In this document: positions 1 through 53,094 of the stretch, piece by piece | Numbering within the stretch: the stretch's first letter is position 1 | How the letters are laid out: each line of letters starts with the position of its first letter | Notes under the pieces: model-generated | What the model was told of the DNA's origin: nothing | The model's database searches: none | Seen by the model: only the letters and a program-made list of their open reading frames with translations | Source of the DNA: an aff. Roholtiella sp. LEGE 12411 | GTDB taxonomy: Bacteria; Cyanobacteriota; Cyanobacteriia; Cyanobacteriales; Nostocaceae | Reading direction: 5' to 3' | Assembly (NCBI RefSeq): GCF_015206995.1 | Contig: NZ_JADEXR010000027.1 | Location: 1-55,717 of the forward strand | Length of the DNA: 55,717 bases | Made by a program: the position numbers and the translations under genes

Positions 1-494
1 GCAAGAATTTGATTGATGGTATAAAACTCAAGTTCATAGTCTCTTTCTGCCATTCTGATTAACCGCAGAATTTCCCGTAATCGTTTACCTCCTAGTTGCG
101 ATCGCAGGTCTTCATCTACTCCATTATTAATCTCATAAATTGCTTCAATAAACCAAGGAATTTTCTGAAATCCATGAGATTCTATAACTTTTGTATCAGC
201 ATTATTACGAACTGTGGGAATTATAAATTGATGTACACCTTTTTGATGTCCCATCTCCAGATATTCAGTAATTTTTGATGCAGTTGGTACAGGAGTTGAT
301 GTGTTGTAGAAAAATCCTTCTAAGACGAGAGTGGGGGAATTGTCAAGGTTGGGGGTCTCAACTCCAAAACGTCGAACCCAATGCATAATATGGTTTAGCT
401 GGATGATTGGCTCTTGAATACTATAGAGTTCAAGGAAAAGTTTCTGGAAGATATTTCTTGCTTCAGGGGTTTCAACAAGTGGGCCAAAGTTCAT
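1..494 (-). CDS. GNAT/FemAB-like acyltransferase (partial, runs off left edge)
   Basis: About 164 codons read without a stop from an ATG at 494 to the left edge, so the C-terminus is missing. The part seen is a soluble alpha/beta protein. It ends with a basic helix (GGKRLREILRLIRMAERDY) that recalls the 'K-R...R-R' helix of FemAB/BioF2-type N-acyltransferases of the GNAT fold. It begins 138 bp downstream of the methyltransferase stop on the same strand, so it is probably the last visible member of the biosynthetic operon and could acylate an amine in the product. The family call rests on general pattern only; no catalytic residue can be assigned. A terminator-like hairpin lies just upstream. 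Confidence 0.55.
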   Translation of the reverse strand, partial: MNFGPLVETPEARNIFQKLFLELYSIQEPIIQLNHIMHWVRRFGVETPNLDNSPTLVLEGFFYNTSTPVPTASKITEYLEMGHQKGVHQFIIPTVRNNADTKVIESHGFQKIPWFIEAIYEINNGVDEDLRSQLGGKRLREILRLIRMAERDYELEFYTINQIL

Positions 495-565
495 TGTGTA
501 ATACCGCGTTTCAATTTTAGATGGGGAATTGTAGAGACGCAACTGCTACCTTTAAAAAGGCAGAA

Positions 566-587
566 AATAATCCAAAAATGGATTATT
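566..587 (-). terminator. Hairpin between methyltransferase and acyltransferase genes
   Basis: A perfect 9-bp stem (AATAATCCA/TGGATTATT) with a 4-nt loop, followed on the minus strand by a short T-run. It lies 46 bp beyond the methyltransferase stop. It may attenuate or end transcription before the left-edge gene. The stem is AT-rich and the T-tract short, so it may be leaky. Confidence 0.45.
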
Positions 588-632
588 AATTACATCTCTA
601 TAAGGCATTTTAAACTTCCTAAAGCCAAAACT

Positions 633-1670
633 TTAAACAGGCAGTCCTTCAATGACGCTAAATCCAGAAGAAGTTGGAATAATATTTGTTAGTTGGAAGC
701 CACTTGCATTGAACAGTTGTTGATATTCTAGTGCGGTACGCTCACAGCCACCTGCTACTACTAACATTACCAGATCATTAATCTTAGCAACAGAGGGTTT
801 GTTGCCATCTGGTAAAACACGCTCGATTAGTAGCAGTTTGCCATTTTTAGCGATCGCCTGATGGCAATTTTTGAGGATTGTACGGGAGCGTTCATCATCC
901 CAGTCGTGAATTACGCTCTTGAGAAGATAGGCATCTCCTCCTTTTGGCACTTCTGACTCAAAGAAATTACCAGTGACAACTTCGCAGCGTTCTGCAACAC
1001 CTTCTGCCTCTAGAAGGCGTTGTGCTCCCTCAATTGCGAACGGCAACTCAAACAAGATCCCTGTCATGTGTGGATTGGCTTTCAAAATTGACGCAATTAG
1101 TAAGCCGTGCCCTCCACCCACATCCACGATGCGATTGATACCAGAGAAGTCGTAGGCATGGACAACGGCAGTATGGACTTGGGTTGTCAATTGAGTCATA
1201 GCTTGGTTGAAAGTCTCGCCGGCTTCAGGGTTTTGAGAAAGGTACTCAAAATGTCCCATTTTATACATATTGTCAAAGGCTGTTTTGCCTGTCATGACGC
1301 TGTAATGAAGGTCAGCACAGGCGCGATAAGGCTCTTCACCAAACAATATTGCCGCTGTGCGTAATGAACTTGGAGCATCTGACCGGAGGAGTTCTCCCAT
1401 AGCCGTTAAGGTGAATTGGTTGTCGGCAATTTCATTGAATATTCCTACACTGACGAGGACGCGCATCAGCCGATAAAGAGAACGGGGGTGTGCTCCAGTA
1501 GACTGCGCTAGTTCATCACAGTTTTTCGCGCCGTCTTTAAGCAAGTCAGCAATGCCAAGCTTGGCTGCAACATAAATCGATTGCGAAGCAAAATATCCAG
1601 TTATTAACTGACGTAGTACGACAGGAGTTGATTCTTGTTCAGAAATTGTTTGATTTTGGATTTGTAACAT
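633..1670 (-). CDS. COMT-type SAM-dependent methyltransferase
   Basis: 345 aa, the usual length for Methyltransf_2 (plant COMT / acetylserotonin O-methyltransferase-like) enzymes. An N-terminal winged-helix dimerisation domain (about 15-95, with a HPRSLYRLMR helix) precedes a Rossmann SAM-binding domain with motif I VDVGGGHG at 182-189 and the HDWDDE segment at 255-260. The His there matches the general base of O-methyltransferases in this family. Related proteins also C-methylate 3-hydroxykynurenine in actinomycin/sibiromycin-type pathways, which is suggestive because the next gene upstream encodes a kynurenine 3-monooxygenase-like protein. Substrate is inferred: a hydroxylated, possibly chlorinated aromatic made by the neighbours. 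O- versus C-methylation cannot be decided from sequence. Confidence 0.88.
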   Translation of the reverse strand: MLQIQNQTISEQESTPVVLRQLITGYFASQSIYVAAKLGIADLLKDGAKNCDELAQSTGAHPRSLYRLMRVLVSVGIFNEIADNQFTLTAMGELLRSDAPSSLRTAAILFGEEPYRACADLHYSVMTGKTAFDNMYKMGHFEYLSQNPEAGETFNQAMTQLTTQVHTAVVHAYDFSGINRIVDVGGGHGLLIASILKANPHMTGILFELPFAIEGAQRLLEAEGVAERCEVVTGNFFESEVPKGGDAYLLKSVIHDWDDERSRTILKNCHQAIAKNGKLLLIERVLPDGNKPSVAKINDLVMLVVAGGCERTALEYQQLFNASGFQLTNIIPTSSGFSVIEGLPV

Positions 1671-1727
1671 CTATTTTTATCCGTATTTAAGGTTAGTTGA
1701 ATTTTGTTCAGCTAAGTAGTTGGAAAA

Positions 1728-1802
1728 AATTAATTACACAAAAATTTGGACTGAAATCCTTTGTTAGCAAAGGATTCGTAAATAAATAATATGTAATTAA
1801 TT
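1728..1802. repeat. Nested inverted repeats in the KMO-methyltransferase gap
   Basis: An outer perfect 11-bp inverted repeat (AATTAATTACA at 1728-1738, complement at 1792-1802) encloses a second perfect 9-bp stem (AATCCTTTG at 1755-1763, complement at 1768-1776). The pair fills most of the 188-bp gap between the monooxygenase and methyltransferase genes. It could stabilise or process the operon mRNA, or act as a weak terminator. Confidence 0.5.
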
Positions 1803-1858
1803 CTGTCCAGATACTGATATTTCCTCAAAGGAAATTTGGGGCTATGATGTGAAAGGCT

Positions 1859-3250
1859 TTATCTGGCAAATTCAAGTAAATTGGCAGATATTTTTGGTAA
1901 CTCAACATCCCTAGAACGCATCAATTTATGAATAATGCTTTCTATCTCTGGGTTGTCAATTCTTGGTTCAATTTCCTTAATTTTGAGTAATTCATCGACA
2001 ATTTGCCTTTGTTGCTTTTCGATTTCTAAAGCTTCCACATAAGGAATGGGGGTAAAGGCAATCAATGAATATAATGGGATATATCTTGTAGGATATAAGC
2101 GGTTAATTTTTCTTTCTAATTTCTTCCGCAGTTGAAATTCATGACTTCCTACTAAATCCCGAATTTCAACGAAATGTTGTTCGGATAACATTCCCATCAC
2201 ATCTGCATTTGGTCGGCGTTGCTGTTCGTATTCACGAAAAGTTGCTATCCAATTTCCCCTATATTTCCCTACACATTGGTCGAAGATAGCGCAATCTTCA
2301 AAACCTGAATTTGCACCTTGTCCGTATGAAGGCCACATAGCATGAGCAGCATCACCAATTAATGCAATTTTATCTTGAAATGTCCAATGGGAGCAGCAAA
2401 CAGTCACCATTGGAATAACAGGATTGGTAAAATAATCTTGCACAAGTTCTGGCATTTCTTGCATGGCATCAGGAAACATAGTTGCAAACAAATGTTGCAA
2501 ATCTTGTTTATTTTTAATGGAGTCAAAGGAAGATTCACCCTCGAAAGGTAGGTGCAGAGTACAGGTAATACTCCCATCAACATTAGGAAAGGATATCAGC
2601 ATATATTGACCTCTAGGCCAAATATGTAATACGTTTTTTTCGAGTGTCCATGCTCCTTGAGCAGATGCAGGAATCAGCAATTCCTTATTAGCGTGTGCTG
2701 CATAATGCTGTGAGTAGTCGAAGCGAGACCTTTGTTGCAATCTTTGGCGTACTGCTGAATATGCACCATCTGCTCCGATGATCCGATTAGCCTGGCGATG
2801 CAATATATTCCCCGTTACAGAATTTTTGAAGGTGATTGTTGTTGATGACAAATCAAGCCCTATACATTCTTCATTAAAGTGAAAATTGATTGGAAAATTC
2901 TTTTGGGCATAATCTAATAATACCCGATTAAGTTCATTACGTGAAACTGAATATAAAGCTTCTTGATTATTGCCGTAAGGCTGATATTCCAGTTGTTGAT
3001 TTTCTTGATGAATCAACCTGCCATATACTGGCACAGATATATTACGAACAATATGACCGACACCAGCGCCATCAAGAGCTTTTAACCCTCTATCACACAA
3101 TGTTATATTAATAGATCTGCCACGTTTTGGAGTGACCTTTCGTAGGTCACAGTTTCGCTCAAAAACTTCAACTGTATAACCCCTTTTGGCTAGATAAATT
3201 GCTAATAAAGAACCAATTAATCCAGCACCAACAATGGTAATATCCTTCAT
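1859..3250 (-). CDS. Kynurenine 3-monooxygenase-like FAD hydroxylase
   Basis: 463 aa. It has the group A flavin monooxygenase plan: GAGLIGS dinucleotide-binding loop at 8-14, IIGADGAYSAVR at 157-168, and the ribityl-binding GDAAHAMWP at 299-307 followed by GQGANSGFEDC. The blocks GRSINIT (44-50), KELLIP (189-194), LHIWPRGQYMLISFP (208-222) and the following TCTL closely match kynurenine 3-monooxygenases of animals and bacteria. That family adds a 3-OH to L-kynurenine using NADPH and O2. KMO signatures are far stronger here than in generic aromatic hydroxylases. No tryptophan 2,3-dioxygenase, formamidase or kynureninase lies in the window, so kynurenine would have to come from elsewhere, or the true substrate is a chlorinated or otherwise altered kynurenine-like compound. 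Confidence 0.88.
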   Translation of the reverse strand: MKDITIVGAGLIGSLLAIYLAKRGYTVEVFERNCDLRKVTPKRGRSINITLCDRGLKALDGAGVGHIVRNISVPVYGRLIHQENQQLEYQPYGNNQEALYSVSRNELNRVLLDYAQKNFPINFHFNEECIGLDLSSTTITFKNSVTGNILHRQANRIIGADGAYSAVRQRLQQRSRFDYSQHYAAHANKELLIPASAQGAWTLEKNVLHIWPRGQYMLISFPNVDGSITCTLHLPFEGESSFDSIKNKQDLQHLFATMFPDAMQEMPELVQDYFTNPVIPMVTVCCSHWTFQDKIALIGDAAHAMWPSYGQGANSGFEDCAIFDQCVGKYRGNWIATFREYEQQRRPNADVMGMLSEQHFVEIRDLVGSHEFQLRKKLERKINRLYPTRYIPLYSLIAFTPIPYVEALEIEKQQRQIVDELLKIKEIEPRIDNPEIESIIHKLMRSRDVELPKISANLLEFAR

Positions 3251-3381
3251 GTTGCTAGTCCTGATTTTTTAATTTTTCCGGAACTCAGAGGTGGTAAGAT
3301 AATCCATAAATTTTAATAATTTGAACTTACCTCTTCTAGTGCCAAAACTCAGTAAGGAAAATAAGATAAGTTATTTTTCAT

Positions 3382-5019
3382 TTACGCGCTTTTAGCTTGC
3401 GCGTAAGTGTTAAATTTCTGTTCAGCAAGATATTCCGACTGCTCTTGAGACTTGATAACATACGTTAAGTAATCATACTGGGATGGCAACGTAACACTCA
3501 AGTATTCGGCTCTCTCTTTAATTGCATTGAATACAGACAAGGCATTTTGGTCATTGATTAAATCCAGAATTGGTAGATTGCTGTTAGGCATATAATTTAA
3601 ACCTAGCAACATCACAGAATAAGAGTAAGACTCGAAACCATGATAATTCTGATTGATGTTTTTGTTGTTTGGCAGTCTACTCTTCCATAGTCTCAACTTT
3701 TCATGCAGTTCTTCTGGGACTACAATATCTTGCTTGCTAGCTTTCCAAAATGGTGTATCACATCGATCACTAGCACAGTAATGAAGTGTCAAAAATTCCC
3801 GCACACCATCTATGCAATTAGCAACAGCTTTGTTATAGCTGCGGATCAAATCTTCGTTGAAAGATTTGTCTGGGAAGTGGCTGACTAATTCCTCAATTCC
3901 ATGTTGAATAAAGAAGATACCGGTAGATTCTAGAGGTTCAACAAAACCACTAGAAAGTCCAATTGCTACGCAGTTTTTCACCCATGAATTTCGGTTACGT
4001 CCAATCCTCATTTTGATGTGAGTGGCTTTGCGATCGTCAGAAGCTGCTCCTAGGTGCTGGCGAAATTCCTGCTCTGCTTCCTCTGGAGAAATAAAGGCGC
4101 TGGAGTAAACATACCCCGTGCCGACTCTGCCGTAAAGAGGTATATTCCAAACCCAGCCAGAGCTCAGTGCAGTTGCCGTTGTGTAAGGGTTGATGCCATC
4201 TTTCTTGATATCGGTGGGTATTTGCATAGCGATCGCACTATCACAGAGCAACGACTCTGAAAAAGAAATGAATGGCTCACCCAGAGCTTTGTTAATCAAT
4301 AGTCCACGAAAACCAGTACAGTCTACAAACAAGTCTCCACTGATAGTGGAATGTTTTTCGGTATGGATGCAATCTATGCTTCCTTTTTCTGTTATATCTA
4401 CTTTTACTACATCATCAACAATCTGCTTTACACCTCTCTGCATTGCATAATCTTTCAAGAATCTGGCAAGCAGGTTAGCATCAAAGTGATAGGCGTATGG
4501 ATACTGAACCTTTAAGTTAGCCAGGATATTTTTTTCACCGTTATTATCTTCGGAAAAAATATCTTTGACTTTATCATCAAAGACTTTCCCGTTCACATAT
4601 TTTGGTGATTTTTTGTTGTCACATAGCATTGGGATTAAAAAGCAAGAATAATCGAATGCCTCCCGGTCTTTTTTCATTTTTAACCACCATTCGGAGACAT
4701 CAAACCCATCTACACTGTCATATCTCTGGAAAGGATGATAAAAATGTCGTCCCGCTGCATTCCAATTCACAAACTTGATTGCCATTTTATATGTGGCATT
4801 ACATTTTTGCATCCATTCCCGCTCTTGCAAACCAAGGAAATCGAAGAATACTTTGATAGTGCTAAATGTCGCTTCGCCGACTCCAATTGTTGTGACGTTA
4901 GATGACTCAATTAGCGTAATCTGAACATTTTTACTGAGAGCTTTGCCGAGATACGCTGCTGTCATCCAGCCTGCTGTACCACCACCAACGATAACGATAT
5001 TCTGTACATTATGTGACAT
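3382..5019 (-). CDS. Flavin-dependent tryptophan halogenase
   Basis: 545 aa, typical for PrnA/RebH-type enzymes. Visible hallmarks: FADH2-binding GGGTAGW at 12-18; the catalytic lysine in CNATYK (K78, equivalent to Lys79 of PrnA/RebH), which forms the Lys-chloramine; the WVWNIP form of the WxWxIP halogenase motif at 289-294; and SGFVEPLEST with E361 corresponding to PrnA Glu346. All known catalytic residues are present, so it should chlorinate (or brominate) an indole, most likely free L-Trp. Position on the ring cannot be read from the sequence. A partner flavin reductase is not encoded nearby and would be supplied in trans. It lies third in the operon, 199 bp after the aminotransferase. Confidence 0.95.
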   Translation of the reverse strand: MSHNVQNIVIVGGGTAGWMTAAYLGKALSKNVQITLIESSNVTTIGVGEATFSTIKVFFDFLGLQEREWMQKCNATYKMAIKFVNWNAAGRHFYHPFQRYDSVDGFDVSEWWLKMKKDREAFDYSCFLIPMLCDNKKSPKYVNGKVFDDKVKDIFSEDNNGEKNILANLKVQYPYAYHFDANLLARFLKDYAMQRGVKQIVDDVVKVDITEKGSIDCIHTEKHSTISGDLFVDCTGFRGLLINKALGEPFISFSESLLCDSAIAMQIPTDIKKDGINPYTTATALSSGWVWNIPLYGRVGTGYVYSSAFISPEEAEQEFRQHLGAASDDRKATHIKMRIGRNRNSWVKNCVAIGLSSGFVEPLESTGIFFIQHGIEELVSHFPDKSFNEDLIRSYNKAVANCIDGVREFLTLHYCASDRCDTPFWKASKQDIVVPEELHEKLRLWKSRLPNNKNINQNYHGFESYSYSVMLLGLNYMPNSNLPILDLINDQNALSVFNAIKERAEYLSVTLPSQYDYLTYVIKSQEQSEYLAEQKFNTYAQAKSA

Positions 5020-5218
5020 GGTAAAAATTCCTCCAAAAGGTTTTTATGGTTGATTTTAAAGTTCGATAAATATTGCAGACATACAATAAAAGTTGCTTGC
5101 ATCTACACTTATTTCTTGATTTTTTTGTTTGATTACTTCTCTTACTACCTACAAGTCTCGTGGTGCTTTTTACGGAATCGCTCTTGACTTTTGTAGATAA
5201 TATGTAAATTTTAATTAT

Positions 5219-6286
5219 TTAATAAACGATTTTTTTTAATATGCCAAGAATTCTTTCATTCTCTTCGCGCACAGAAATTGAAATTCTGAGAGAGTTTTTG
5301 ATCTGAAAAGAGGTATCAGAGACGAGTGCATTTGCTTTGACAAGACTTTCATATACTATGCTTGAGTTAAAAAACTCAACCAGAATGAAATTTGTTTGGC
5401 TGGGATAAACTCGCTTGACAATAGATATCTGCTCAAGTTCTAAATATAGGCGTTCACGTTCTGACTTAATTCTCTTGACATTGCTTTGAACCAGATCAAG
5501 ATTATCAAGTACATCAGCGACAGCCTTTTGTGCAGGTAAAGTAAAAGAAAAAGGATCGAGCAGCAATCTCAAAGTATATAAAATTGAGGGTTCTCCGATT
5601 ACAACACCAATTCTTAAACCTGCAAGTCCCCAAGCTTTAGAGAATGTACGCAACACTACAAGATTGGGATATTCTGTGATGAGTTTAATACTTGAGTCTT
5701 GTTCAGAAAAGTCTATGTATGCTTCATCAACAATCACCAGTCCAGAGGATTGTTTTAGTACATCAATCAGCTGCTCTTGACTGAGAATGGAACTAACAGG
5801 ATTATTAGGATTACAAATAAACGTTAATTTTGCTTTTGCAGCAGCTATAGCATCCGTATTCAGAGCATTCAAGTAATCACCAATCAAGGGAACATCAACA
5901 ACTTCAATATCATATCCTAGTGCATAATTTCTATATGCTGGAAACGTTGGATTCTGAATGCATATCTGGTCTATTAGAGGTTCACAAAAAGCTCTAGTTA
6001 GCAAATCAATGGCAACGATAGAGCCAGGAGTAAACAAGATATTCTCGGCAGAAAAAGATACTTTTCCATGCTGTATTTTGAGTTCCTCTATCAAATATTT
6101 TGCATATTTTGCCTGAACTTCAATCGGATTGGGACATGGATAAATTCCATATTCACTAGCATAAGGATTGGTATTGATGCGTTCTGTTGTCGCCTTTCGA
6201 TACCGTGCTATTGGTTCAGGTAGGGTGAGTTTTTTCAGGCTGCGCCTCGCCAGAGGATGCAGCGTTGTACTTGCAGAAATTTTCAT
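5219..6286 (-). CDS. HisC-like PLP aminotransferase (fold type I)
   Basis: 355 aa, complete class I/II aminotransferase close in plan to histidinol-phosphate aminotransferase. NPNNP at 159-163, DEAYIDF at 187-193 and the PLP-lysine motif TFSKAWGLAGLR (K217) are all present; NTNPYASEYG near 38-47 replaces the usual LNENPYG-like entry loop. It begins 1 nt after the cupin-HDO stop codon, so the two are surely co-translated. In a tryptophan-derived cluster it more likely transaminates an aromatic amino acid (chloro-Trp or a kynurenine) than histidinol phosphate. HisC paralogues are commonly recruited this way, but the substrate is inferred. Confidence 0.88.
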   Translation of the reverse strand: MKISASTTLHPLARRSLKKLTLPEPIARYRKATTERINTNPYASEYGIYPCPNPIEVQAKYAKYLIEELKIQHGKVSFSAENILFTPGSIVAIDLLTRAFCEPLIDQICIQNPTFPAYRNYALGYDIEVVDVPLIGDYLNALNTDAIAAAKAKLTFICNPNNPVSSILSQEQLIDVLKQSSGLVIVDEAYIDFSEQDSSIKLITEYPNLVVLRTFSKAWGLAGLRIGVVIGEPSILYTLRLLLDPFSFTLPAQKAVADVLDNLDLVQSNVKRIKSERERLYLELEQISIVKRVYPSQTNFILVEFFNSSIVYESLVKANALVSDTSFQIKNSLRISISVREENERILGILKKIVY

Positions 6287-6287
6287 T

Positions 6288-7412
6288 TTAGTAACTCTCT
6301 ACGAGTTCGGCGATTCTTGCACACATCACATTCAGCATGTCCCACCCTTCTTGTTGAATCTGTATCAGCCTGTCGTAGCTTCTCTGCTCAAGGTTCGTAA
6401 GTAATTCCAGCCCCATTACCTGATGTTCATCGTCTGCTTCATCATGAACAGCAAAGTATTTTGTCTGTTCAAAGGATGACATGTTAAGATTAGCAACCTT
6501 ACTGAAAACACTCGATCCTACTTCCAGTACAAGGTGTACCAGTACAGTTTTTTCTGTGCTGTCTAGGGTTAGCATTTTCCAGGCAAACCAGTTAGAAGTT
6601 GCCTCTAATATAGGATCCCATATAACCTTTAGCGCATCTCCTCTCTCGGCTGCCAGATTGTTGTTATGTCCGTATTCTTCATCTAAATGTTTGTTGAACA
6701 AAAGAGCAAACTCCCGTTCTTCTGTGAAAGCAGATCTAGCAAAAAGGATTTTTTGGAAAAAATTTGACCATACCTGAACACAATCAAAAAATCTATTTCT
6801 CAGGCGTTCATCTGCAAGCCGTCCACTTGTAACCAACGCAAACATTGGATTTTGCTTATGGTCTTCACTAAACTGCTTGTTCCTTTGCAATAGTTTTGTG
6901 AAACCGGGATTGTACTCTTTTTTATGTAGTCTTCCATCAGCGAATTCTACCTGTGCTTCATTAGGATTTTCGTATAATCCTCTACCTTCAAATTGAACAG
7001 AAAGCGCCCAAAAACCCTCATTTCCAGCACCTACAAAACCGTGTAGAGATCCGTTAGGGATGATCACAACATCACCGTCAGAAAATTCAGCATCAATCTC
7101 TCCCTGTATGCGTCCATGTCCATCACACATGATAATCATTGTTTTAATTGGATGGACATGACATGCAAGTTTTTCTAAAGGTTTAAGATGCACCCAAGCA
7201 AGAGAAACTCTACCTTCATTTGGCAGGAAGTCTAATAAATCTGAGTGTTTTCTAAAATCTTTGAGTATGCCAAGATTCTGCTCTATATTATCAATCAATA
7301 CATGAGTGAGACTAGGTATTTCATCTCGACGAATGATTTTTATCTTTTCCCTTTGCTCTATTGGATAATTATTTTTTGTCATGCTTTTACTTGTTTCCAT
7401 GCTATTAGCCAT
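6288..7412 (-). CDS. Cupin + heme-oxygenase-like diiron (HDO) fusion enzyme
   Basis: 374 aa, first gene of the operon. The N-terminal half (about 55-145) is a cupin: H85-x-H87 in the first motif and GDVVIIPNGSLHG with H124 in the second, although the usual Glu of motif 1 is not evident. The C-terminal half (about 180-374) is helical and carries a plausible HDO diiron set: E246-x2-H249, E297, and H323-x3-D327-x2-H330, the last matching the spacing of the CADD/PqqC-like HDO family. HDO enzymes include N-oxygenases, desaturases and C-C cleaving oxidases. SznF, the nitrosourea-forming enzyme, also joins an HDO and a cupin but in the opposite order. Function here is unknown; an N- or C-oxidation of the halogenated amino acid is a reasonable guess. 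Confidence 0.75.
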   Translation of the reverse strand: MANSMETSKSMTKNNYPIEQREKIKIIRRDEIPSLTHVLIDNIEQNLGILKDFRKHSDLLDFLPNEGRVSLAWVHLKPLEKLACHVHPIKTMIIMCDGHGRIQGEIDAEFSDGDVVIIPNGSLHGFVGAGNEGFWALSVQFEGRGLYENPNEAQVEFADGRLHKKEYNPGFTKLLQRNKQFSEDHKQNPMFALVTSGRLADERLRNRFFDCVQVWSNFFQKILFARSAFTEEREFALLFNKHLDEEYGHNNNLAAERGDALKVIWDPILEATSNWFAWKMLTLDSTEKTVLVHLVLEVGSSVFSKVANLNMSSFEQTKYFAVHDEADDEHQVMGLELLTNLEQRSYDRLIQIQQEGWDMLNVMCARIAELVESY

Positions 7413-8326: not shown

Positions 8327-10282
8327 TTAGCTACTTTTTCCCGATGTTGGTGGCATAATCCATTCACAATCAAAAGTTTTATTTAATAATTGCCTTAAAC
8401 TAATTACCTTAATAGTTGCATTGTGAATTTCACCCGTTCTACTTTGGATATTAACAACTTCATAACCAATATCTTTTAATTCATCTGTTAAAGATACATA
8501 GCCAAAATAGTCATAAACATCCTCAATTTGTTCTTCATTCTCTGGGATAAACATATCCCAACAAACTATAAAATTCGTTACAATAAAAGGATGGTTATAT
8601 TGATCAATAGGAGAAAAATTATATTTATATTCTAAGCCTCTTTGAACTATGTCTTTTAAGCTATTTTCTTCTAAAGGAACTGCTATACTGTCAAGCCCAA
8701 CACCAGAAAAAGTTAGTGGACGTACCCATAAGTTTGCATAAGGTGAATCAACAGTCACTAAATGAGAAAACATTGTATATAATGCCCCTACCCAATGTTC
8801 TTCACCAATTTCTGGTTGTATAATCCATTTATCTTTTAGTTGTTCTATATTTTTGACCTTAAATCTATTCCTATTTTGAACACCTTTTTTTAATACTCCT
8901 AATTTTTTGGTATATGCTTCCAACTTTTCTTCTTGATTTTCTTTATTTAATCTTTCAATCAGTTCACGAAAAACAGGAAGTTGTCTTTTAGCTTCATCAA
9001 AAAATTTTTTAATATTATCCAGAAATATCGAATCTTTTAAAATTTGTCTGGAAGCATCCGTAATAGCATTTCTATTTGTAACAACATCAAAACTACCATT
9101 AATAATTAGAATATAGTGTGATTGAGCTTTAGCTTCATCTAGTAAACAGTATTCTTTTAATGAACTATTTTCAAAAATTTCATTATAAGGGCAAATTCTA
9201 ACACCTTCACATGAGATAAATACCCCTCTTTGATCTGCTAATCTGATGCCTGAGCGTTTTTGACCTTTTCTACTTAATTCTTCATATTTATTTAATGCTC
9301 TGCGATGCCCATCTATTGCTAAAACTATACAAAATGTTGTTTCTTCGTGTAAAAAGGTAGAACAATAACGGGCTGAAAAATTACCATTATTAAGTGATGA
9401 TATTTGAGAAGGAGTTTTGATTTTAATTTCTTCAGTTTGATCTGGTTTATCTAAATAAGGATATCCTGCTTTTATTTTTTGTAAACTATATACACTCTTT
9501 TTTTTAGACCATAGGAATAAGTTACATTGATCGTTATATCCTAGAGTTTGAGTAAAAGAAATTGACCTCCTCTCAGGAAATCCTGTATTAGCAGGTCTAA
9601 GTATTCTCATGTCACCATGTCTTGTATTAAAGCGTATATAATGCTTTAAATATGACCATATTTGTGAGCCATAGTCGTCAGAAGAATAATATGCTGAAAA
9701 ATTATCAACCTCTAATTCTTCAACAATAATCATCGTACCTTGAGCATTAAATTTGGATTTAAAGAAATCTTTATTTAATTGGTCAATTACATTTCTGGTT
9801 TGATTTTTTGGTCTTTTAAAAAGTTCATTTATAATTTCCCAAGGTTGATCGTGATATTGAGAAGAAATATTAAATTTTTCATTAAGATTATTTTTAGGAT
9901 TATCTATGGATTTATATCTCCACCAGAGTTCACCTTGGCATCTAGTAATAACAGTTATTTTTTTAGAAGCAAAACAAAGTTTGGAGCCTTGACATTTATA
10001 ACCGATATATTCTCCTTGAACTTTTGTTGATTTTCCAATAGAAAAAAAGGCAACATAAGGAGTAATTCCGTTAATTTCTTGGCTTTCATCTAAACCAATA
10101 CCATCATCAAAATATATAAACCCTTTTTCCTGCAAAAGTGGATATATTTCAATATTATTAGCCCTGGCATCATAAGAATTAGATATTAATTCCCGAATAA
10201 CTTCACATGGATCTTTACGATTAACAGAGAGTTCAGAAAGAATATGACTATAAGAAATAACAGGATATTTTGGGTTGTCCAT
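8327..10282 (-). CDS. GHKL (Bergerat-fold) ATPase, MORC/Hsp90-like
   Basis: 651 aa. The N-terminal domain is a GHKL ATP-binding fold: N-box E31LISNSYDA with E31 and N35, DDGIGL at 59-64, and the lid SIGKSTKVQGEYIGYKCQG at 81-99. The layout (E-N-D, then a GxG lid with Lys) resembles Hsp90/MutL/MORC rather than histidine kinases, and no kinase or receiver domain follows. A probable transducer domain with GHRR (about 330) precedes a coiled, Lys/Glu-rich region (about 435-475) and an unrecognised C-terminal domain. It stands alone, about 0.9 kb from the metabolite operon, beside a broken transposase. Stand-alone GHKL ATPases of this sort are often found in defence or DNA-maintenance loci; its function here is unknown. 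Confidence 0.8.
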   Translation of the reverse strand: MDNPKYPVISYSHILSELSVNRKDPCEVIRELISNSYDARANNIEIYPLLQEKGFIYFDDGIGLDESQEINGITPYVAFFSIGKSTKVQGEYIGYKCQGSKLCFASKKITVITRCQGELWWRYKSIDNPKNNLNEKFNISSQYHDQPWEIINELFKRPKNQTRNVIDQLNKDFFKSKFNAQGTMIIVEELEVDNFSAYYSSDDYGSQIWSYLKHYIRFNTRHGDMRILRPANTGFPERRSISFTQTLGYNDQCNLFLWSKKKSVYSLQKIKAGYPYLDKPDQTEEIKIKTPSQISSLNNGNFSARYCSTFLHEETTFCIVLAIDGHRRALNKYEELSRKGQKRSGIRLADQRGVFISCEGVRICPYNEIFENSSLKEYCLLDEAKAQSHYILIINGSFDVVTNRNAITDASRQILKDSIFLDNIKKFFDEAKRQLPVFRELIERLNKENQEEKLEAYTKKLGVLKKGVQNRNRFKVKNIEQLKDKWIIQPEIGEEHWVGALYTMFSHLVTVDSPYANLWVRPLTFSGVGLDSIAVPLEENSLKDIVQRGLEYKYNFSPIDQYNHPFIVTNFIVCWDMFIPENEEQIEDVYDYFGYVSLTDELKDIGYEVVNIQSRTGEIHNATIKVISLRQLLNKTFDCEWIMPPTSGKSS

Positions 10283-45572: not shown

Positions 45573-48104
45573 TCAAAGCCAGTCACCAACCAGAACAAAT
45601 CCGGCCCAAAAGTAAGGATGCTCATATTTAGGATTAGACATCAGCTTTAATTGTGCAAAGCGCAGTGCTTCGGCTTTAGGTAGACCATTTCTCAAGCCTC
45701 TGTATAATTCTTCCATCAGTAAAGTGGTAGATTCTGCTTCTACTAACCATAGGCTAGCAACTGTACTACGCGCACCTGCCTGTGCTGCTATCCCAGCAAT
45801 TCCTAATGCCGAGCGCCGATCTCCTTTCGCTGTTTGGCAAGCACTTAGGACAAGTAGATCAATTCCAGAACGTTCAGTTTTTAATAAAAATTTTAGTTCT
45901 TTAACAGTAACAGGAACGTCCCAAGCCAAGACAAAAGTTTTTTCTGGGTCAGAGCTAAATTGACCGTGAGTACTAAGATGAACAACTACAAGTTGATTCT
46001 CTTGCATCTTTCGTTGAAAATCGTCAGTGGTAAATTGGGCATTGAGTAGTAGTTCTGACCCGGCAGCAGTTTTTGTTTTAATGCTTGTGACTTCCTTTTT
46101 AACTTCAGGGAGAGCTTTGAAACTTTGAGGAACTAACGAATTATTGAAACTAGGCCCTATCTCAGAAACACCTGCAATTAATGCTCTAATATTTTTTGGA
46201 TTTAAAGCTCGGCTTGGCCAAAAATTGGAACTTGAAGCTATTGAAATGTTGTAATGCTTTACTAGATAATTTTCCCCATCGTACAGCATAGAAACAGGTA
46301 GATTTTGAAAGTAAGTATCTAGCACCAATACTAAATTCCCCGAATCAGGTAAATGCTTTTTGATAGGCGCAAATACTAGATTATAAATAGTTTGAGGGTA
46401 AATAATTAGATTAGATTGTTTAATTCCAGTAAGCTCCTTATTTTGAGCGCCAGAAATTAAACTATCAATACTATTGTTAAGTAGTTGGAAATCTATAGTA
46501 TGTCGATAAAGAGAACCTTGCGAAGTCCGAACAATTGCTTCGGCTCGGTTTTTTAATTTAATTAAATATATTATCGGTGGTAAGTTAGCTACTTTGGGAC
46601 TATCAATTAAAGAAACTGATGTTAGTCTGCCGCATTGTAAAAAAGTTTCTAATTCAGCGATTTTGAGCTTTTCTTGAGTTTTGATTACCTCTTCTAAGTT
46701 GGGGTTATTTTGAGATAGATTTAACTCCATATACTCTTGATAAACAGGTTCAACTTTCTCTTTAAACTCCCATTGAATTTCTGGATTAATTGTTAAAATA
46801 CTACCTCGAACTTTGTCAAGAGTACTGATAGTTGCTTTATATGCTTGCGTTGCCTTATCAAAATCATTAGTGCGCTGATATAAGCGCCCTAATTGCCATT
46901 GCCACTTGTAAGCAATGTCCCAAGCTTGTACTGATTGGGCTAGCCCCATCGCTTGTTTTAAATATTTTCTAGACTCGAGTTCTTGTCCTAAAGAGCTATA
47001 AATGTTGCCAACAGTTCCTGAAGCATAAGATTCTGCTCGTTCATTATCTAGCTGCTGAGCCAATGAGCGGGACTGTTGAGCAAAGAACAATGCTGCTTTC
47101 AATGGATTTTCGCCATTAGAGAAAACAGATTGCTTTAACTCACTGTTTTTGCTAATTTGTGTTAAATTTTCTGCAAAATTAAGCTGAGCGTAAATAGATT
47201 CAATTAGTGGAAGTTTCTCAAACTGATTCGGTGTTGTCAATAATTGTTTTACCAATATTTTAAGAAGTTGCCTTCTAGTTTCAATATCTATATTTGTTAG
47301 CTCGGGCCATTTCTCAATTTCTAGTAACAGACTTAATTGATATAATTGTGGCAATACCGGGATATCTCTCAGGTTTTGATATTGCTCGAAAGCTGAATTA
47401 ATGTTAGATCTAGCTATTATGAAAACTTTTTGTTTGCCTTCAGGGTCGTCCATTATCTGATATCGACTCTTAGCTTGATTATAAAGAGTGCGTTGCGTAT
47501 TCGCCTGACTTAATAATAATTGATTATTAAAACTTGATTCTAAACTCAGTTTTCTAGCCATTATAGAAGACTTTGACAAGACAACTGAAGAGGCTTCTAA
47601 ATCCCCAAGCATTCGTAACACATCACCTAAATTGCGAAGTCCGATTACTCGCACTTTTAGCATCGGTTGCTTTTGTAAAGCAAGGCTCAGCCGCTCTTGG
47701 GATTCTTTTAAAGAGTATTGTCTTTCTTGAAATGAATTAGTACAAAGCCAATTTTTCATTTCCAAAGCTTCAATGAGAACCTGGCAAGCTTGAGGGTACA
47801 TACCACTAGCCTGAAATGCCAAGCTTTGATTAATCAAGCTACCGCTCATTCCATTAGAGTCGTTTAATCGTTTGTAAGCTTTGTAAGCTGCTTGCCAAGT
47901 TTGTTGGGCTGCTTCAGTTTGTCCTTGATGGAGTTGCTTGTATCCTTGTTGAGTAAGGCTTTGTGCATAAGAATGTTCCGAGGGAGTAGACTGAGATTTT
48001 GCTTCCCCCTGACACAAAATTATCAGCAAGCTCAAAGATAGTCCTAAGCCTAAGTATTTCAAATTCGATAAGTAATAGATAAATAAACGCCGTTTTCTTG
48101 CCAT
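45573..48104 (-). CDS. CHAT-domain (caspase-like) protein with TPRs, exported or membrane-bound
   Basis: 843 aa. An N-terminal hydrophobic segment (about 12-33, ending in GEAKSQ) predicts a signal peptide or anchor. TPR-type helices fill about 40-440. The CHAT peptidase domain follows with the His of HLSTHGQF (near 712) and Cys of LSACQTAKG (near 753), then GIAGIAAQAGARSTVASLW and the final PYFWAGFVLVG motif. Catalytic dyad intact. The gene overlaps the TpsB gene by 46 bp, so it belongs to the two-partner secretion operon; it may cleave TpsA or a partner protein during export. Confidence 0.9.
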   Translation of the reverse strand: MARKRRLFIYYLSNLKYLGLGLSLSLLIILCQGEAKSQSTPSEHSYAQSLTQQGYKQLHQGQTEAAQQTWQAAYKAYKRLNDSNGMSGSLINQSLAFQASGMYPQACQVLIEALEMKNWLCTNSFQERQYSLKESQERLSLALQKQPMLKVRVIGLRNLGDVLRMLGDLEASSVVLSKSSIMARKLSLESSFNNQLLLSQANTQRTLYNQAKSRYQIMDDPEGKQKVFIIARSNINSAFEQYQNLRDIPVLPQLYQLSLLLEIEKWPELTNIDIETRRQLLKILVKQLLTTPNQFEKLPLIESIYAQLNFAENLTQISKNSELKQSVFSNGENPLKAALFFAQQSRSLAQQLDNERAESYASGTVGNIYSSLGQELESRKYLKQAMGLAQSVQAWDIAYKWQWQLGRLYQRTNDFDKATQAYKATISTLDKVRGSILTINPEIQWEFKEKVEPVYQEYMELNLSQNNPNLEEVIKTQEKLKIAELETFLQCGRLTSVSLIDSPKVANLPPIIYLIKLKNRAEAIVRTSQGSLYRHTIDFQLLNNSIDSLISGAQNKELTGIKQSNLIIYPQTIYNLVFAPIKKHLPDSGNLVLVLDTYFQNLPVSMLYDGENYLVKHYNISIASSSNFWPSRALNPKNIRALIAGVSEIGPSFNNSLVPQSFKALPEVKKEVTSIKTKTAAGSELLLNAQFTTDDFQRKMQENQLVVVHLSTHGQFSSDPEKTFVLAWDVPVTVKELKFLLKTERSGIDLLVLSACQTAKGDRRSALGIAGIAAQAGARSTVASLWLVEAESTTLLMEELYRGLRNGLPKAEALRFAQLKLMSNPKYEHPYFWAGFVLVGDWL

Positions 48105-49801
48105 GTTCGAGAGTTCGTATTTGTATCAACTGAAATTAAAGGAAGTCCCCAGTCGAGCCGAGCATTAAAGCGATCGCTTGACTGGTACTGCAAGCCTAAT
48201 CCCACAGAAGCTAAAGTGCCTGTAAAATCTGGGTTTAATTCATCAGATTTACCATTGTTCCAAGCAGTCCCTAATCCAATAAATGGTATTACGTGTATTT
48301 CTCCCTCTTCTCCTGTCCAAGCTCTTATACGTAATTCCGCAGAAATAAGAGCTGCATTGTCAGCTACAAAGGTATCTTCACGGTAGCCACGTATAGTAGT
48401 TGCACCGCCTAAGCTAAATTGCTCTAATGCGGCAAGGCGTCTGTCAGCCAATTGTATTTCTGCCCTTGCCAGTAAAACTACATTGCTAGATAGCTGCCGC
48501 AACCACGCAGCTTGACCTTGCCAGGATAAAAATTGACCATCAGGAGCAGAATTATTGATAGTTGCATCAAACGCATCAATGCCCCAACTAAACTCAGAGC
48601 GTAATAAGAAAGCTCCTTTAAGGTAACGTTGCGTCCAATCCTGGAAAAATCTCATAGCAGAAATTCGTGTACGCCCTGTTGAATCTGCTCCTTTAGTCAA
48701 CGGGTATGGAGTGCCATCAATTGATGAATCACTTTCGAGCCGGGAAAACGTCAATCCCAAAGCAAATTCTTGGTAGGATTTGTTGTCAGCTTTTCTGATT
48801 AATGGTTGACGATAAGTAAACTGGTAAGCACGAGCATTAGAAATAAGATCTAAACTACTAAATGGGCGTTCAATAATATTGGTCGAAGCATTTACGTAGT
48901 CAAACTGTAAAGTCCCATTTTGTGGATTGATGGGGATAGAATAGCTGGTTGCAATAGTGCTACTTCCATCAGTATTTCGATATCCGACACTCAAGCTATC
49001 ACCCAGTCCTAATAGGTTGGCATGATTTAATTGAATTCCACGTTGAAAGCTACCAACAGCAGGTGAACGATGGTTATCTAAAAAAGCTTCCGCCTTGAAT
49101 GGCTCTCGCTGCTTTACTAAAATGTTTAGGACAGTTTTACTGATTTGAGAGCTTTTATTTAATTCTGCCGAAATCGTCTCAATTAAAGGATCTTGCTGCA
49201 ACAGTAACAAAGCTTCAGTTACACGATTGCTATTAACAACTTCATTTTGGCTTGGTAAGCGTGAAAGAACGTAGTTTTGCAGGTGTGAGCCACCTGTAAT
49301 GTTAATTTTCTCCAGTTTTCCTTCGACTACCTGAATAGTGATTACTGCTCCATTCGCATTAATTGCTTGATTTTCATTAATTGGGATGAAAGCACCAGAA
49401 GTAACGTACCCTTGTTCTAAATATAAGTCTGTGACTGCACTCCGAGCAGCGTACAACTCAGTTAGAGTGATTTCTTTTCCTGTAAAAGGTGCAACTACTG
49501 CCTCTAGTTGTTGTGTGGTTAAAACTGTATTACCTTTGAAAACAAATCGGTCAACTTTAAAAGTTACTTGATTTGAATCAGGGATTTCATTAGGAGATTT
49601 AATAGAAGCAGGCTCTAGTGTTTGTTTTCCACTCGAAGGTAAAGGTGGTAGAACTTCTTGAGGTTCTCGTATTATTGGAATTGGTGTAGGAATTTGATCT
49701 GGATTGACTGTTTGCGCTAACACAGGCTTAACTGTTAAGCTCAAAATAATTAGAAAAACAATTGCTCCATAAGCATTATTTAAATATTTGAATTTTGGCA
49801 T
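48059..49801 (-). CDS. TpsB/FhaC/ShlB outer-membrane transporter
   Basis: 580 aa. A signal peptide ends VLAQ (about 27-30), followed by a Pro-rich linker, two POTRA-like domains (about 75-230, with FKVDRFVFKGNTVL) and a 16-strand barrel. The barrel includes the conserved RGY element (GGATTIRGYRED) and ends in a C-terminal strand with aromatic residues. It exports the TpsA protein across the outer membrane. It lies 102 bp after the tpsA gene. Confidence 0.9.
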   Translation of the reverse strand: MPKFKYLNNAYGAIVFLIILSLTVKPVLAQTVNPDQIPTPIPIIREPQEVLPPLPSSGKQTLEPASIKSPNEIPDSNQVTFKVDRFVFKGNTVLTTQQLEAVVAPFTGKEITLTELYAARSAVTDLYLEQGYVTSGAFIPINENQAINANGAVITIQVVEGKLEKINITGGSHLQNYVLSRLPSQNEVVNSNRVTEALLLLQQDPLIETISAELNKSSQISKTVLNILVKQREPFKAEAFLDNHRSPAVGSFQRGIQLNHANLLGLGDSLSVGYRNTDGSSTIATSYSIPINPQNGTLQFDYVNASTNIIERPFSSLDLISNARAYQFTYRQPLIRKADNKSYQEFALGLTFSRLESDSSIDGTPYPLTKGADSTGRTRISAMRFFQDWTQRYLKGAFLLRSEFSWGIDAFDATINNSAPDGQFLSWQGQAAWLRQLSSNVVLLARAEIQLADRRLAALEQFSLGGATTIRGYREDTFVADNAALISAELRIRAWTGEEGEIHVIPFIGLGTAWNNGKSDELNPDFTGTLASVGLGLQYQSSDRFNARLDWGLPLISVDTNTNSRTWQENGVYLSITYRI

Positions 49802-49903
49802 AACCCCAAAGGTTTATGATGGTACAAGCTGAAGCAATTTTCTCAAAATCTAAAGATTTTTTCAGTGAAAACAGTCTAAACTGATGTTTTTGTTTGATAT
49901 CTT

Positions 49904-52378
49904 TTATTGCTGCTCATCTGGTTTTTGAGATTCTTCAGGGCGGTGGCAAAGAGCTTCTGTTCCAGATGTATATCCAACTTCATCAGTGGGTCTTTTTGTA
50001 AAACTTATCGTCCCGTCACCATTATTTATTACTTCTTGCACCTCAACAAGTTGGGATGATAAATCATTCTCAGTTGATTCTATAACCTCCTGAGATTGGG
50101 AAGTTGAAGCAGGGGTGGACTCATCAATCCAACCAGAAAAACTGCTGAGGTCTTCAATTGGGCTAGTTGGAATAACTCCTGTTCTTGCATCCACAAACTC
50201 TGTTGCTTCTCCTAACCGTGCAGTGCAATTTTGAGCAAGTTCGGGTGATTGAATTGCCGATAGAGCTATTATTTCTTTGGTGTAACCAATTTTTGGTGCA
50301 TTAATCAAAACTCTACCATTAACTCCTCTGTCAGAGGTTGCTGTCACTTCACTTCCAGGAGCAATAAAGACTCCTCTAGCATTGATTTCCACATTGCCGC
50401 CCTGTCCTTCCTCTGCATTGGCTGCAATCTTGCTGTTTTCTAATATGGCTAATACACCACCGTCAAATTTTATGTTACCGCCGTTACCATTGCCACTTGC
50501 AGTAGCAGTAATAATACTGGAATCTTTTAGTTGCAAATTATTCTGTGCATATAGCGAAAGGTTGCCGCCTTCGCCGGAAGCAGTGGATGCTGCAATAGAA
50601 CTTTTTTCGTCTAACAGGATGGAGTTTCCTGCATTAATTGTAAGCGTCCCAGCATTGCTTTTACCCTCATTTTCGACGCTAACTTTTCCACCATCTGTCA
50701 CATTCAAATCTTGAGTATTGATTATTACTTTTCCTGGAGAGCCACTCGGTATGGGGGGAGCACCAAATATTCTTTGAGCGTCTGTATTAGCTCTAGTAGC
50801 AGATGAGCCGATTGAGCCGCTTACTTTTACATTGTTAGCATTGATAGTGAGGACTCCAGCAGAACCAATACCTAATGTGGAAGTATTAGCAAATGCCCGC
50901 TTCCCTACTAACATTCTTGATGTATTGATTGTTAAATTTCCAGCGTTCCCCTCACTAAAAGTTTGAGAGGCTAAGTAGCTAGGAATAAAAGGTCTCCCTG
51001 AATTAATTAATTCAATAGAATTAGTTAACTCTATTGAATTAGAAGCAGTTAAAAACACATTTCCTCCAGCCCCATTCCCTAATGTTTGAGAGGATATTAA
51101 TCCTCCATTTTTAGCCTCTAAATTGATTGTCGAGACTCTGATGTCTCCGGCTTTTGCAAAAGTATTTGAGGTAGTAGTACTAACAATGCTACTAGTGAAA
51201 AGAGGATTTAAAGATGAAAAGCCAATCAATTTTATAGAATTAAAAGCATTTACAGTTATATCCCCTCCATTACCACTACTGTAATTTCTAGAGCTTATAG
51301 CTGCTCCTCCTTCACTCACTAAGTCTTTACCATAAACGTCTATATTTCCTCCATTTGCAGAACCTAATGACTCGGTTCTCAAGAAACTAGTAAATCTTCC
51401 ATCTGGAGATATGCCGCTTAAATTAAATGACTCATCAGATTTAACTGTAATCCTACCCGAAGGTGAATTTTGATTTTGAATTAGAATTGCTGCTCCCTCA
51501 TTTAAGGATACGTTCCTCCCCTGTATATTAATAGAGCCGCCAGCATTTCCACTGGTATCGATTAACGCTTGCTTAGAGAAATAAATATCATTAAAAGAAG
51601 GCACTTCTTCATAACCCAAAGTCCAGCCTTGATCAGTTTGATTAAGACTAACAGTACCAGAGCTAACACTGCCTATAGAAATTGTTCCTCCCTCTGCTAC
51701 CAACGTTCCACCTTCTATGTTGACACCACCGCCTACCAAAGCTAGATTTTTACCTGTCTGTACTAATAGACCAGTTGAGTTACTGTTCCTAATGATTGGT
51801 GTATTTCTTGAGCTTGGAGCAGTTAAACCATCACCTCTGCCCTGCACATTAATCGGATTTGGATTCCTAAACTTCAAGCCGATTGGAAAATTGATTGCCA
51901 ATAGTGGTGGTGCTTGAGGGTTTATAGCATTGAACTCCAAGTTTTCACCAAACTCAATGGCATCAGCAGTACTTGCTAAAAACGAGCCACCAATATCAAT
52001 CCCTGCATTTTGTCCAAAGTTAATTCCGCTGGGATTGAGTAAAATTAAGTTAGCCGTGCCATTAGCTTTAATTAACCCATCAATAATAGAAGCTGAGCCT
52101 CCGGTAACTCTAGTGATAATGTTTTCAACGTTTAAAGCATTGTTGAACTGAGTCGTACTTCCAGTAACAACAGAAAATGCATCTAAGCTGTGAAATAAGT
52201 TTTGACCTATTGGAGTTCCACCTTCAATAGTTGTAATGCTTCCTTCGACTTTGACGCTGGTGTTAGTTGGTAAAGTCATGTCTGGCTTAATTTGAGCTTG
52301 AGATGGTAAAATAGCTGAAAGAGAAATAAGCCCTGATGCTACAGCTTTACTGAGAATAGTCTGGTATTTGCTTTTCAT
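49904..52378 (-). CDS. TpsA filamentous haemagglutinin-like exoprotein
   Basis: 824 aa from the ATG at 52378, which is preceded by GAGG and directly followed by a signal peptide (KSKYQTILSKAVASGL… to AQA-like PSQAQ); the upstream ATG at 52444 would put 22 residues ahead of it. The TPS secretion domain has the expected motifs (NGTANLILLNPSGINFGQNA, SFLAST). The rest is a long beta-helix of Gly/Asn/Ser repeats (GGNIDVYGKDL, GGDITVNAFNS type). It is shorter than adhesins such as FhaB and ends with an acidic, Cys-containing tail. Probably a surface adhesin or surface-interaction protein. Confidence 0.9.
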   Translation of the reverse strand: MKSKYQTILSKAVASGLISLSAILPSQAQIKPDMTLPTNTSVKVEGSITTIEGGTPIGQNLFHSLDAFSVVTGSTTQFNNALNVENIITRVTGGSASIIDGLIKANGTANLILLNPSGINFGQNAGIDIGGSFLASTADAIEFGENLEFNAINPQAPPLLAINFPIGLKFRNPNPINVQGRGDGLTAPSSRNTPIIRNSNSTGLLVQTGKNLALVGGGVNIEGGTLVAEGGTISIGSVSSGTVSLNQTDQGWTLGYEEVPSFNDIYFSKQALIDTSGNAGGSINIQGRNVSLNEGAAILIQNQNSPSGRITVKSDESFNLSGISPDGRFTSFLRTESLGSANGGNIDVYGKDLVSEGGAAISSRNYSSGNGGDITVNAFNSIKLIGFSSLNPLFTSSIVSTTTSNTFAKAGDIRVSTINLEAKNGGLISSQTLGNGAGGNVFLTASNSIELTNSIELINSGRPFIPSYLASQTFSEGNAGNLTINTSRMLVGKRAFANTSTLGIGSAGVLTINANNVKVSGSIGSSATRANTDAQRIFGAPPIPSGSPGKVIINTQDLNVTDGGKVSVENEGKSNAGTLTINAGNSILLDEKSSIAASTASGEGGNLSLYAQNNLQLKDSSIITATASGNGNGGNIKFDGGVLAILENSKIAANAEEGQGGNVEINARGVFIAPGSEVTATSDRGVNGRVLINAPKIGYTKEIIALSAIQSPELAQNCTARLGEATEFVDARTGVIPTSPIEDLSSFSGWIDESTPASTSQSQEVIESTENDLSSQLVEVQEVINNGDGTISFTKRPTDEVGYTSGTEALCHRPEESQKPDEQQ

Positions 52379-53094
52379 CAAGACCTCGTGCGAAGTTTTT
52401 AAATCTTTGAGATTTAGGCTAATTTGGTTAGCTTCAATTATCACTGTGAGCTATACATACTCAAAGTTTCGTGCCAGTTTTATGGCAGTATGATTTCGGG
52501 AAAAGTCTCCCATCTCTGTATTTGGGTATCTGTTACGTTTATAGATTCATTTTTTGTGGATTGCTTATTGTTGCTGATAGTGAGTAGCGCTCCTTATAAT
52601 CACAAAACACTGATAGTATACAGCAATAAGCAGCATATTCAATACTTTTGTAAGTAAAAAAAATACCATTTTTTTTAATGAATATTAGCTTGACAATAAG
52701 CATTTTAGTTTCTAAGAACTAAGGCGATTTGGAAAACCCATCAGATGTATTGAAAGTTGAGCTTAGTAGGCTAAACAGTCTGATATTACTAGCTTTGATG
52801 GATTTAAATTTAAGTTCAAAATAGCTCTTTCCCGCACCAAATACTACCTAGTAAACAACGGATCAAAATACTTTCAAGTCCATTTTTTTATTATCGATAT
52901 CAGAGCTATATGTAGCAGCTATACCTCATAGATTGTATTTTCTCTATAAAAATCATAATAAATTAATCTTAGTAAAAACTTTTAATATCGATTGAAAAAG
53001 TTACGCAGATTTATATAAGGTTAAATTCTGATCGTTAAAATATTTGAAGGTATCGTCACGCGCTTTTAAGCAAATTAGTAATAGAGTGCATCTT
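52379..53094. promoter_or_regulatory. Upstream region of the two-partner secretion operon
   Basis: About 0.7 kb of AT-rich DNA with no credible gene. It should hold the promoter and leader of tpsA on the minus strand. A GATATCAGAGCT half-site occurs near 52895-52910, a relative of the double GATATC operators. Nothing else recognised. Confidence 0.45.

Follow-up and report, generated by a model that had tools for sequence, protein, structure and literature searches.

What would a cyanobacterium make with a tryptophan halogenase, a homolog of kynurenine 3-monooxygenase (KMO) and a protein that appears to fuse a cupin to a heme-oxygenase-like diiron oxidase (HDO), all encoded in a row on the same piece of DNA as conjugation genes? 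This question is raised by the first 7412 bp of a 55,717-bp contig from aff. Roholtiella sp. LEGE 12411 (Nostocaceae; assembly GCF_015206995.1, contig NZ_JADEXR010000027.1), which was analyzed over its whole length and is called the window here. A first-pass annotation, made from the letters alone, had described a compact halogenating cluster in which five complete genes and a partial one follow each other on one strand, separated by 1-199 bp. All six reading frames are present as claimed; they lie on the minus strand, and the sixth runs into the contig end. Pfam matches (Trp_halogenase with 499 bits, FAD_binding_3, Methyltransf_2, and Aminotran_1_2) and matches to solved structures in the PDB support a tryptophan-halogenating cluster with a KMO homolog beside conjugation genes. 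The cluster is a real and rare operon front end with five intact genes on a plasmid carrying conjugation genes. We tentatively propose that these genes begin an operon whose product is a tryptophan metabolite with a halogenated ring, made without a nonribosomal peptide synthetase (NRPS) along a route that includes opening of the indole ring. The broader claim, that an exported halogenated amide derived from tryptophan is formed, appears fairly probable.

The gaps between the six genes are, in operon order, 1, 199, 131, 188, and 90 bp; the last increases to 138 bp if the sixth gene starts at the ATG at position 494, the start site of its intact homolog. None of the five gaps contains a minus-strand terminator-like site. 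Promoter-like sites occur at chance level (27 found versus 25.9 expected), and an Rfam scan of the window gave no match. The window represents the entire contig C135 of a genome of 6.58 Mb in 338 contigs that is 99.5% complete. Therefore, its left end is an assembly break.

To find related clusters, we used two samples. The first, a scan of 84,980 species with a single genome each, was based on exact short peptides, so that only close relatives could be reached, and it may leave out records near the window's own genome. The second consisted of 386 genomes drawn from the phylum, including that of the window. The species-wide scan returned one relative of the cupin-HDO fusion (74% identity), in the metagenome-assembled genome (MAG) of Aphanothece sp. 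CMT-3BRIN-NPC111. Among the 386 phylum genomes, no other full-length relative was found, and two genomes matched over 72-75 residues in the cupin part only. In the Aphanothece MAG, counterparts of all six genes are arranged as in the window, and their products are 74-86% identical to the window proteins. The ratio of nonsynonymous to synonymous substitution rates (dN/dS) between the two copies was 0.10-0.19 in all six gene pairs, which indicates that selection has preserved both copies. Together with the conserved gene order, this argues that the cluster is more than a chance arrangement. Judged by eye, the neighbors of the MAG copy include rplI, dnaB, phoH, and ffh, and this copy therefore seems to be chromosomal, whereas genes for a relaxase and a coupling protein accompany the window copy on its contig. 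The DNA upstream of the two clusters showed no similarity better than E 0.19. Inspection by eye suggests two further features of the MAG: an intein-like insert in the DnaB-like gene (L009, 619-2571) and, beside the exporter gene described below, a putative CRISPR-Cas locus (L014, 4332-15865) that includes a Cas10d-like protein.

In Aphanothece, the operon continues beyond the point at which the contig of the window ends. It encodes a whole sixth protein of 337 amino acids, two ATP-grasp proteins of 413 and 421 amino acids, and an ABC exporter of 1249 amino acids. Accordingly, the cluster type given by the first-pass annotation stands, but its gene set was incomplete. The ATP-grasp proteins matched ATP-grasp_4 with 39 and 72 bits, and the 421-amino-acid protein also carries LAL_C2 (70.8 bits); within the operon, ATP-grasp together with this L-amino acid ligase C-terminal domain was found in the Aphanothece relative only. 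With two ATP-grasp proteins and an exporter in the operon, amide formation probably does not depend on an NRPS. The sixth gene of the window (1-494, minus strand, likely start ATG 494) encodes an N-terminal fragment with 77% identity to residues 1-163 of its intact homolog (L009, 17078-18091). It had been labeled acyltransferase-like, which is not confirmed: in Pfam, the intact homolog matched nothing below E 0.055, and NCBIfam and the PDB gave no match. For the sixth protein, the sole match among the 386 genomes outside the window's own</find><why>b, d, w</why></edit>
<edit><find>the plasmid copy would be a remnant that ends near the sixth gene,</find><replace>the plasmid copy would be a remnant that ends at or near the sixth gene, (29% identity, E 8e-4) fell into a frame that by eye encodes a cysteinyl-tRNA synthetase and was rejected as noise, and no match was found among plasmids.

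The sixth frame runs open to base 3 of the window, that is, into the contig end. The plain reading is an assembly break, and gene loss is the alternative. If loss had occurred, the plasmid copy would be a remnant that ends near the sixth gene, without ligases and exporter, and no finished product would be made in this host. Consistent with such a remnant, a search of this 99.5% complete genome for the C-terminal half of the sixth gene and for the two ATP-grasp proteins gave nothing (the exporter was not searched for), while the second ATP-grasp query does match in the Aphanothece genome. But a frame open to its last base is what an assembly break should leave, and five complete open genes and the low dN/dS values of all six pairs do not fit a decaying copy. 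We therefore regard the remnant as improbable.

The third gene encodes a flavin-dependent tryptophan halogenase of 545 amino acids (3382-5019, minus strand), probably a 5-halogenase. It contains GGGTAGW at position 12, WVWNIP at 289, EPLESTG at 361, and K78 within ATYKMAI, which we take to be the flavin adenine dinucleotide (FAD)-binding and halogenase motifs (GGGxxGW, WxWxIP, EPLESTG) and the catalytic lysine. Its best PDB match is a tryptophan 5-halogenase (8fov, 623 bits), closely followed by a 6-halogenase (5hy5, 612 bits), so that the overall score leaves the site of halogenation unsettled. Published motif sets allowed a narrower prediction. The 5-halogenases of group B1 are described with ATFSTV, HPFER, a third motif starting with Q, and YHGFExYS, versus ATFSDI, HPFEQ, QG..Q, and YHGLPPYS for 6-halogenases (PMC8269204). 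The window protein reads ATFSTI, HPFQR, LKVQ, and NYHGFESYS at motifs Trp1 to Trp4. Compared with the motifs as given there, Trp1, Trp2, and Trp4 are nearer to the 5-halogenase set, two of them with one substitution each, and Trp3 fits neither set. Swapping motifs 1, 2, and 4 in a 6-halogenase shifted the ratio of 6- to 5-product to 1:34 (PMC8269204), and replacing LPP by FET in SttH gave 32% 5-chlorotryptophan and, with indole-3-propionate, 75% 5-chlorination (PMC5071727). Based on the inexact fit at three of four motifs and on these swaps, C5 of tryptophan is our best guess for the site; chlorine and bromine are not distinguishable. Thereby, a site that the first-pass annotation had left open is narrowed, as is the substrate of the KMO homolog (see below).

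We also considered the halogenase as a marker for further clusters. At E 1e-60, it matched in seven of the 386 genomes; six of these are genomes other than that of the window, and three of the six matches have 76-80% identity. In all six neighborhoods (15-20 kb), only the halogenase was found of the eight cluster proteins, and its use as a marker was rejected. The exact motif NYHGFESYS is present in the Aphanothece protein and in two of the six others (L024 and L026; not in L025 and L027-L029). In one of these genomes (L026, G172:C121, 2538-11537), a halogenase with 76% identity is encoded in a gene row together with a class I methyltransferase, a DAO-type oxidase, a Methyltransf_33 (EgtD-type) protein, a FAD_binding_4 oxidase, and a MatE transporter, a set that perhaps leads to a halogenated, N-methylated tryptophan product.

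If a kynurenine is formed from the halogenated tryptophan, the indole ring has to be opened. A search for tryptophan 2,3-dioxygenase (TDO; PF03301) found it neither in the genome of the window nor in that of Aphanothece, with a control that matched in two of 14 genomes. The earlier statement that NRPS, polyketide synthase, and TDO genes are lacking thus holds for the genes of the 1-7412 stretch by Pfam, and for TDO it extends to both genomes. Ordinary tryptophan breakdown is not favored, since TDO was not found and a halogenase is part of the operon (formamidase and kynureninase were not searched for). Besides the halogenase and the KMO homolog, the operon shows a single candidate oxygenase, the product of its first gene, the cupin-HDO fusion (6288-7412, minus strand, 374 amino acids). 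We infer that this protein could open the ring, although we know of no HDO or HDO-cupin protein that does so.

The cupin-HDO fusion matches Cupin_2 (22.6 bits, residues 73-133) and Haem_oxygenas_2 (19.6 bits, residues 255-357), both below the Pfam cut-offs, and the cupin score is below its cut-off in all three homologs. H85, H87, and H124 in the cupin part are invariant in all three, and so are E246xxH249, E297, and H323xxxD327xxH330 in the helical part, which are candidate metal ligands. Their spacing (ExxH, E, HxxxDxxH) presumably corresponds to the ligand sets of known HDOs. Related enzymes are known to act on halogenated tryptophan: AetD and SktA are HDOs that attack the side chain of bromotryptophan and give a nitrile and skatole, respectively, and neither is described with a cupin domain in the passages of PMC13108848 that deal with them. 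The same source presents SznF of the streptozotocin pathway as the characterized HDO with a cupin domain (PMC13108848). By analogy, the window protein might be an N-oxygenase, with the HDO part oxidizing a nitrogen and the cupin rearranging the product, so that an N-O or N-N group would be placed on a halogenated amide derived from tryptophan. The three invariant cupin histidines would suit such a role. But the cupin of SznF is C-terminal and that of the window protein N-terminal, neither the single sequence nor the profile of the three homologs found SznF among solved structures, and the operon showed no gene of arginine or guanidine type. We therefore give an SznF-like function little probability. 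The third homolog, with 36% identity, was found in Embleya sp. NBC_00888. It is encoded on a plasmid (L011, 8741-20993) together with a ketosynthase, an SDR protein, an FAD monooxygenase, an aldehyde dehydrogenase-MaoC fusion, and an alcohol dehydrogenase.

The fourth gene (1859-3250, minus strand) encodes the KMO homolog of 463 amino acids. Its best PDB match is the KMO structure 6lkd (295 bits), and 146 of 398 aligned positions are identical to KMO of Pseudomonas fluorescens. In the latter, R84, Y98, Y404, and N369 lie near the carboxylate of kynurenine (PMC6376250) and form a clamp for it. Three of these four residues are kept in the window protein (R78, Y92, and Y394 for R84, Y98, and Y404), and N369 is replaced by histidine. 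Of the five aryl-pocket residues given for the same enzyme, two are kept (L213 and I224) and three are changed (L226F, F238H, and M373I). The Aphanothece protein has the same letters at all of these positions. At E 1e-30, KMO homologs were present in 24 of the 386 genomes, including the window's own; loci were available for 20, so that 19 besides the window were analyzed and four were not. All six nearer relatives (37-44% identity; L034-L039) carry the nine KMO letters, while all 13 farther relatives (L040-L052) lack both R84 and Y98. The window protein shares three of the four clamp residues with the nearer relatives, unlike the farther ones, and its descent from true KMOs is clear. Judged by these residues, it probably still binds an amino acid through the carboxylate but with a different ring in the pocket, which would suit a halogenated kynurenine and, almost equally, an indole. 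A further KMO homolog (37% identity) is encoded on a plasmid of Eleftheria terrae (L053, 9009-21260), flanked by genes for a class I methyltransferase and by large NRPS genes, perhaps for a hydroxykynurenine-type building block.

The fit to indole leads to a different course, in which the ring is never opened. 5-Halo-tryptophan would be hydroxylated on the indole by the KMO homolog and then methylated, the cupin-HDO fusion would oxidize or shorten the side chain in the manner of AetD and SktA, and the ligases would yield an indole amide or a dipeptide. The negative search for TDO in both genomes, the changes at L226, F238, M373, and N369, and the known action of AetD and SktA on the bromotryptophan side chain (PMC13108848) are all in line with this course. 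The same applies to the 212-bit match of the KMO homolog to VioC, an indole-hydroxylating relative, though this score is far below the cut-off of 760. But the kept carboxylate clamp and the match to 6lkd speak for a kynurenine hydroxylase by descent, and an aminotransferase beside a KMO homolog is simply explained by a quinolone route. Taken by itself, a product with an intact indole is doubtful; we consider it nearly as likely as ring opening.

The two remaining complete genes encode an aminotransferase and a methyltransferase. The second gene (5219-6286, minus strand) encodes a HisC-type aminotransferase of 355 amino acids that carries SKAW with K217, presumably the pyridoxal phosphate-binding lysine motif. 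The fifth (633-1670, minus strand) encodes a COMT-type methyltransferase of 345 amino acids (Methyltransf_2, 174 bits; Dimerisation, 58 bits) with the motif IHDWDD, whose histidine we assume to be the candidate catalytic residue. For the ring-opening route, the following steps can be drawn, with an atom mapping of our own. The halogenase would place chlorine or bromine on C5 of free tryptophan. The cupin-HDO fusion would then open the indole ring and yield 5-halo-kynurenine, replacing TDO. Since a halogen at C5 leaves the position next to the amino group free, the KMO homolog, whose residues suggest an amino-acid-type substrate, could hydroxylate there and produce 5-halo-3-hydroxykynurenine. 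The aminotransferase would remove the alpha-amino group, with closure to 6-halo-xanthurenic acid, or may act elsewhere, and the methyltransferase would cap the phenol to give a 6-halo-8-methoxy-2-carboxy-4-quinolone. Finally, the ATP-grasp proteins could couple the carboxylate to one or more amino acids and the ABC exporter could release the product; the genes for this last step were seen in the Aphanothece relative only and lie here perhaps beyond the contig end.

The quinolone at the end of this route has the skeleton of a known natural product. Caelestines A-D are brominated 2-carboxy-4-quinolones of the ascidian Aplidium caelestis; caelestine A antagonizes the NMDA receptor, and caelestine B is selectively antimalarial (PMC13268815). 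Caelestine C is 6-bromo-8-methoxy-4-oxo-1,4-dihydroquinoline-2-carboxylic acid, for which the authors presume an origin in the kynurenine metabolism of bromotryptophan (PMC13268815). Its substitution pattern is the same as that of the predicted product, but this match is not independent, since the caelestines were already known when the route was drawn and were looked up by name. They also differ from the prediction in their ascidian source, while for the window operon chlorine and bromine are not distinguished and an amide would be expected from the ligases of the relative.

Parts of the route have bacterial precedents. The quinolobactin pathway includes KMO, aminotransferase, and methyltransferase steps and uses TDO and formamidase. 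It has no halogenase, whereas on the side of the window TDO was not found and an ATP-grasp route is expected. In the taromycin pathway, a 6-halogenase, TDO, and formamidase feed an NRPS, whereas the window operon has 5-halogenase motifs, with no TDO found and no NRPS seen. What quinolobactin and thioquinolobactin share with the proposal is the course: in P. fluorescens, tryptophan is converted via xanthurenic acid to a methoxyquinaldic acid (PMC3053476). Taromycin provides a tryptophan halogenase of the same branch, Tar14, that feeds a halogenated kynurenine, L-4-chlorokynurenine (reference listed in PMC8269204). Each enzyme type is known, but no published account of the combination was found in the open-licence literature searched, in agreement with the first-pass annotation, which did not recognize the gene set from a known pathway.

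Several observations weigh against the ring-opening route. The activities of all operon proteins are predictions from sequence. For the halogenase, the score of the 6-halogenase is nearly equal to that of the 5-halogenase, and its motifs depart from the 5-halogenase set as published by V to I, E to Q, and an LKVQ without the initial Q. The changes N369H, L226F, F238H, and M373I mean that kynurenine itself may not be a substrate of the KMO homolog, and the aminotransferase scores just below the cut-off of the HisC family (TIGR01141 hisC, 267 versus 277 bits). The heme-oxygenase-like profile is below its cut-off in two of the three cupin-HDO homologs and gives no match in the third. A profile of all three returned cupins and chance matches among the solved structures but no HDO, and an AlphaFold model built from two sequences was rejected (mean predicted local distance difference test score, pLDDT, 37.9). 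Since the Embleya homolog is located among genes of another type, the cupin-HDO family is not tied to tryptophan. A search for indoleamine 2,3-dioxygenase (IDO) found nothing in the two genomes, but none of the 14 controls matched either, so that this result is uninformative. That the C-terminal half of the sixth gene and the ligase genes were not found in the host counts on the same side. The full proposal, in which the cupin-HDO fusion opens 5-halo-tryptophan without TDO or IDO and the operon leads to caelestine-type quinolone amides that are made by ATP-grasp ligases and exported, is rather unlikely as a whole.

If ring opening were true, the operon would provide bacterial genes for making halogenated kynurenines or quinolones, and a cupin-HDO fusion doing the work of TDO would represent a new route to kynurenines. 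Even with the ring closed, a cupin-HDO protein with its domains in reversed order, encoded next to a tryptophan halogenase, would be a notable enzyme.

Outside the cluster, the window contains a TrwC relaxase (258 bits) and a T4SS-DNA_transf coupling protein (105 bits), both clear by Pfam. For the mating-pair ATPase and channel, a TrbI match (24.5 bits) stays under its cut-off of 35, and a protein of 1021 amino acids matches P-loop_TraG weakly (E 0.011). The description as a conjugative plasmid is therefore supported by the relaxase and the coupling protein. Upstream of the cluster, the gene at 8327-10282 (minus strand) encodes a HATPase_c_3 domain and matches the BbrUII/HgiDII restriction family weakly (21 bits versus a cut-off of 550). 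Further along, at 45573-52444 (minus strand), three large adjoining genes appear by eye to encode a CHAT-domain TPR protein, a two-partner secretion channel, and a hemagglutinin-type exoprotein.

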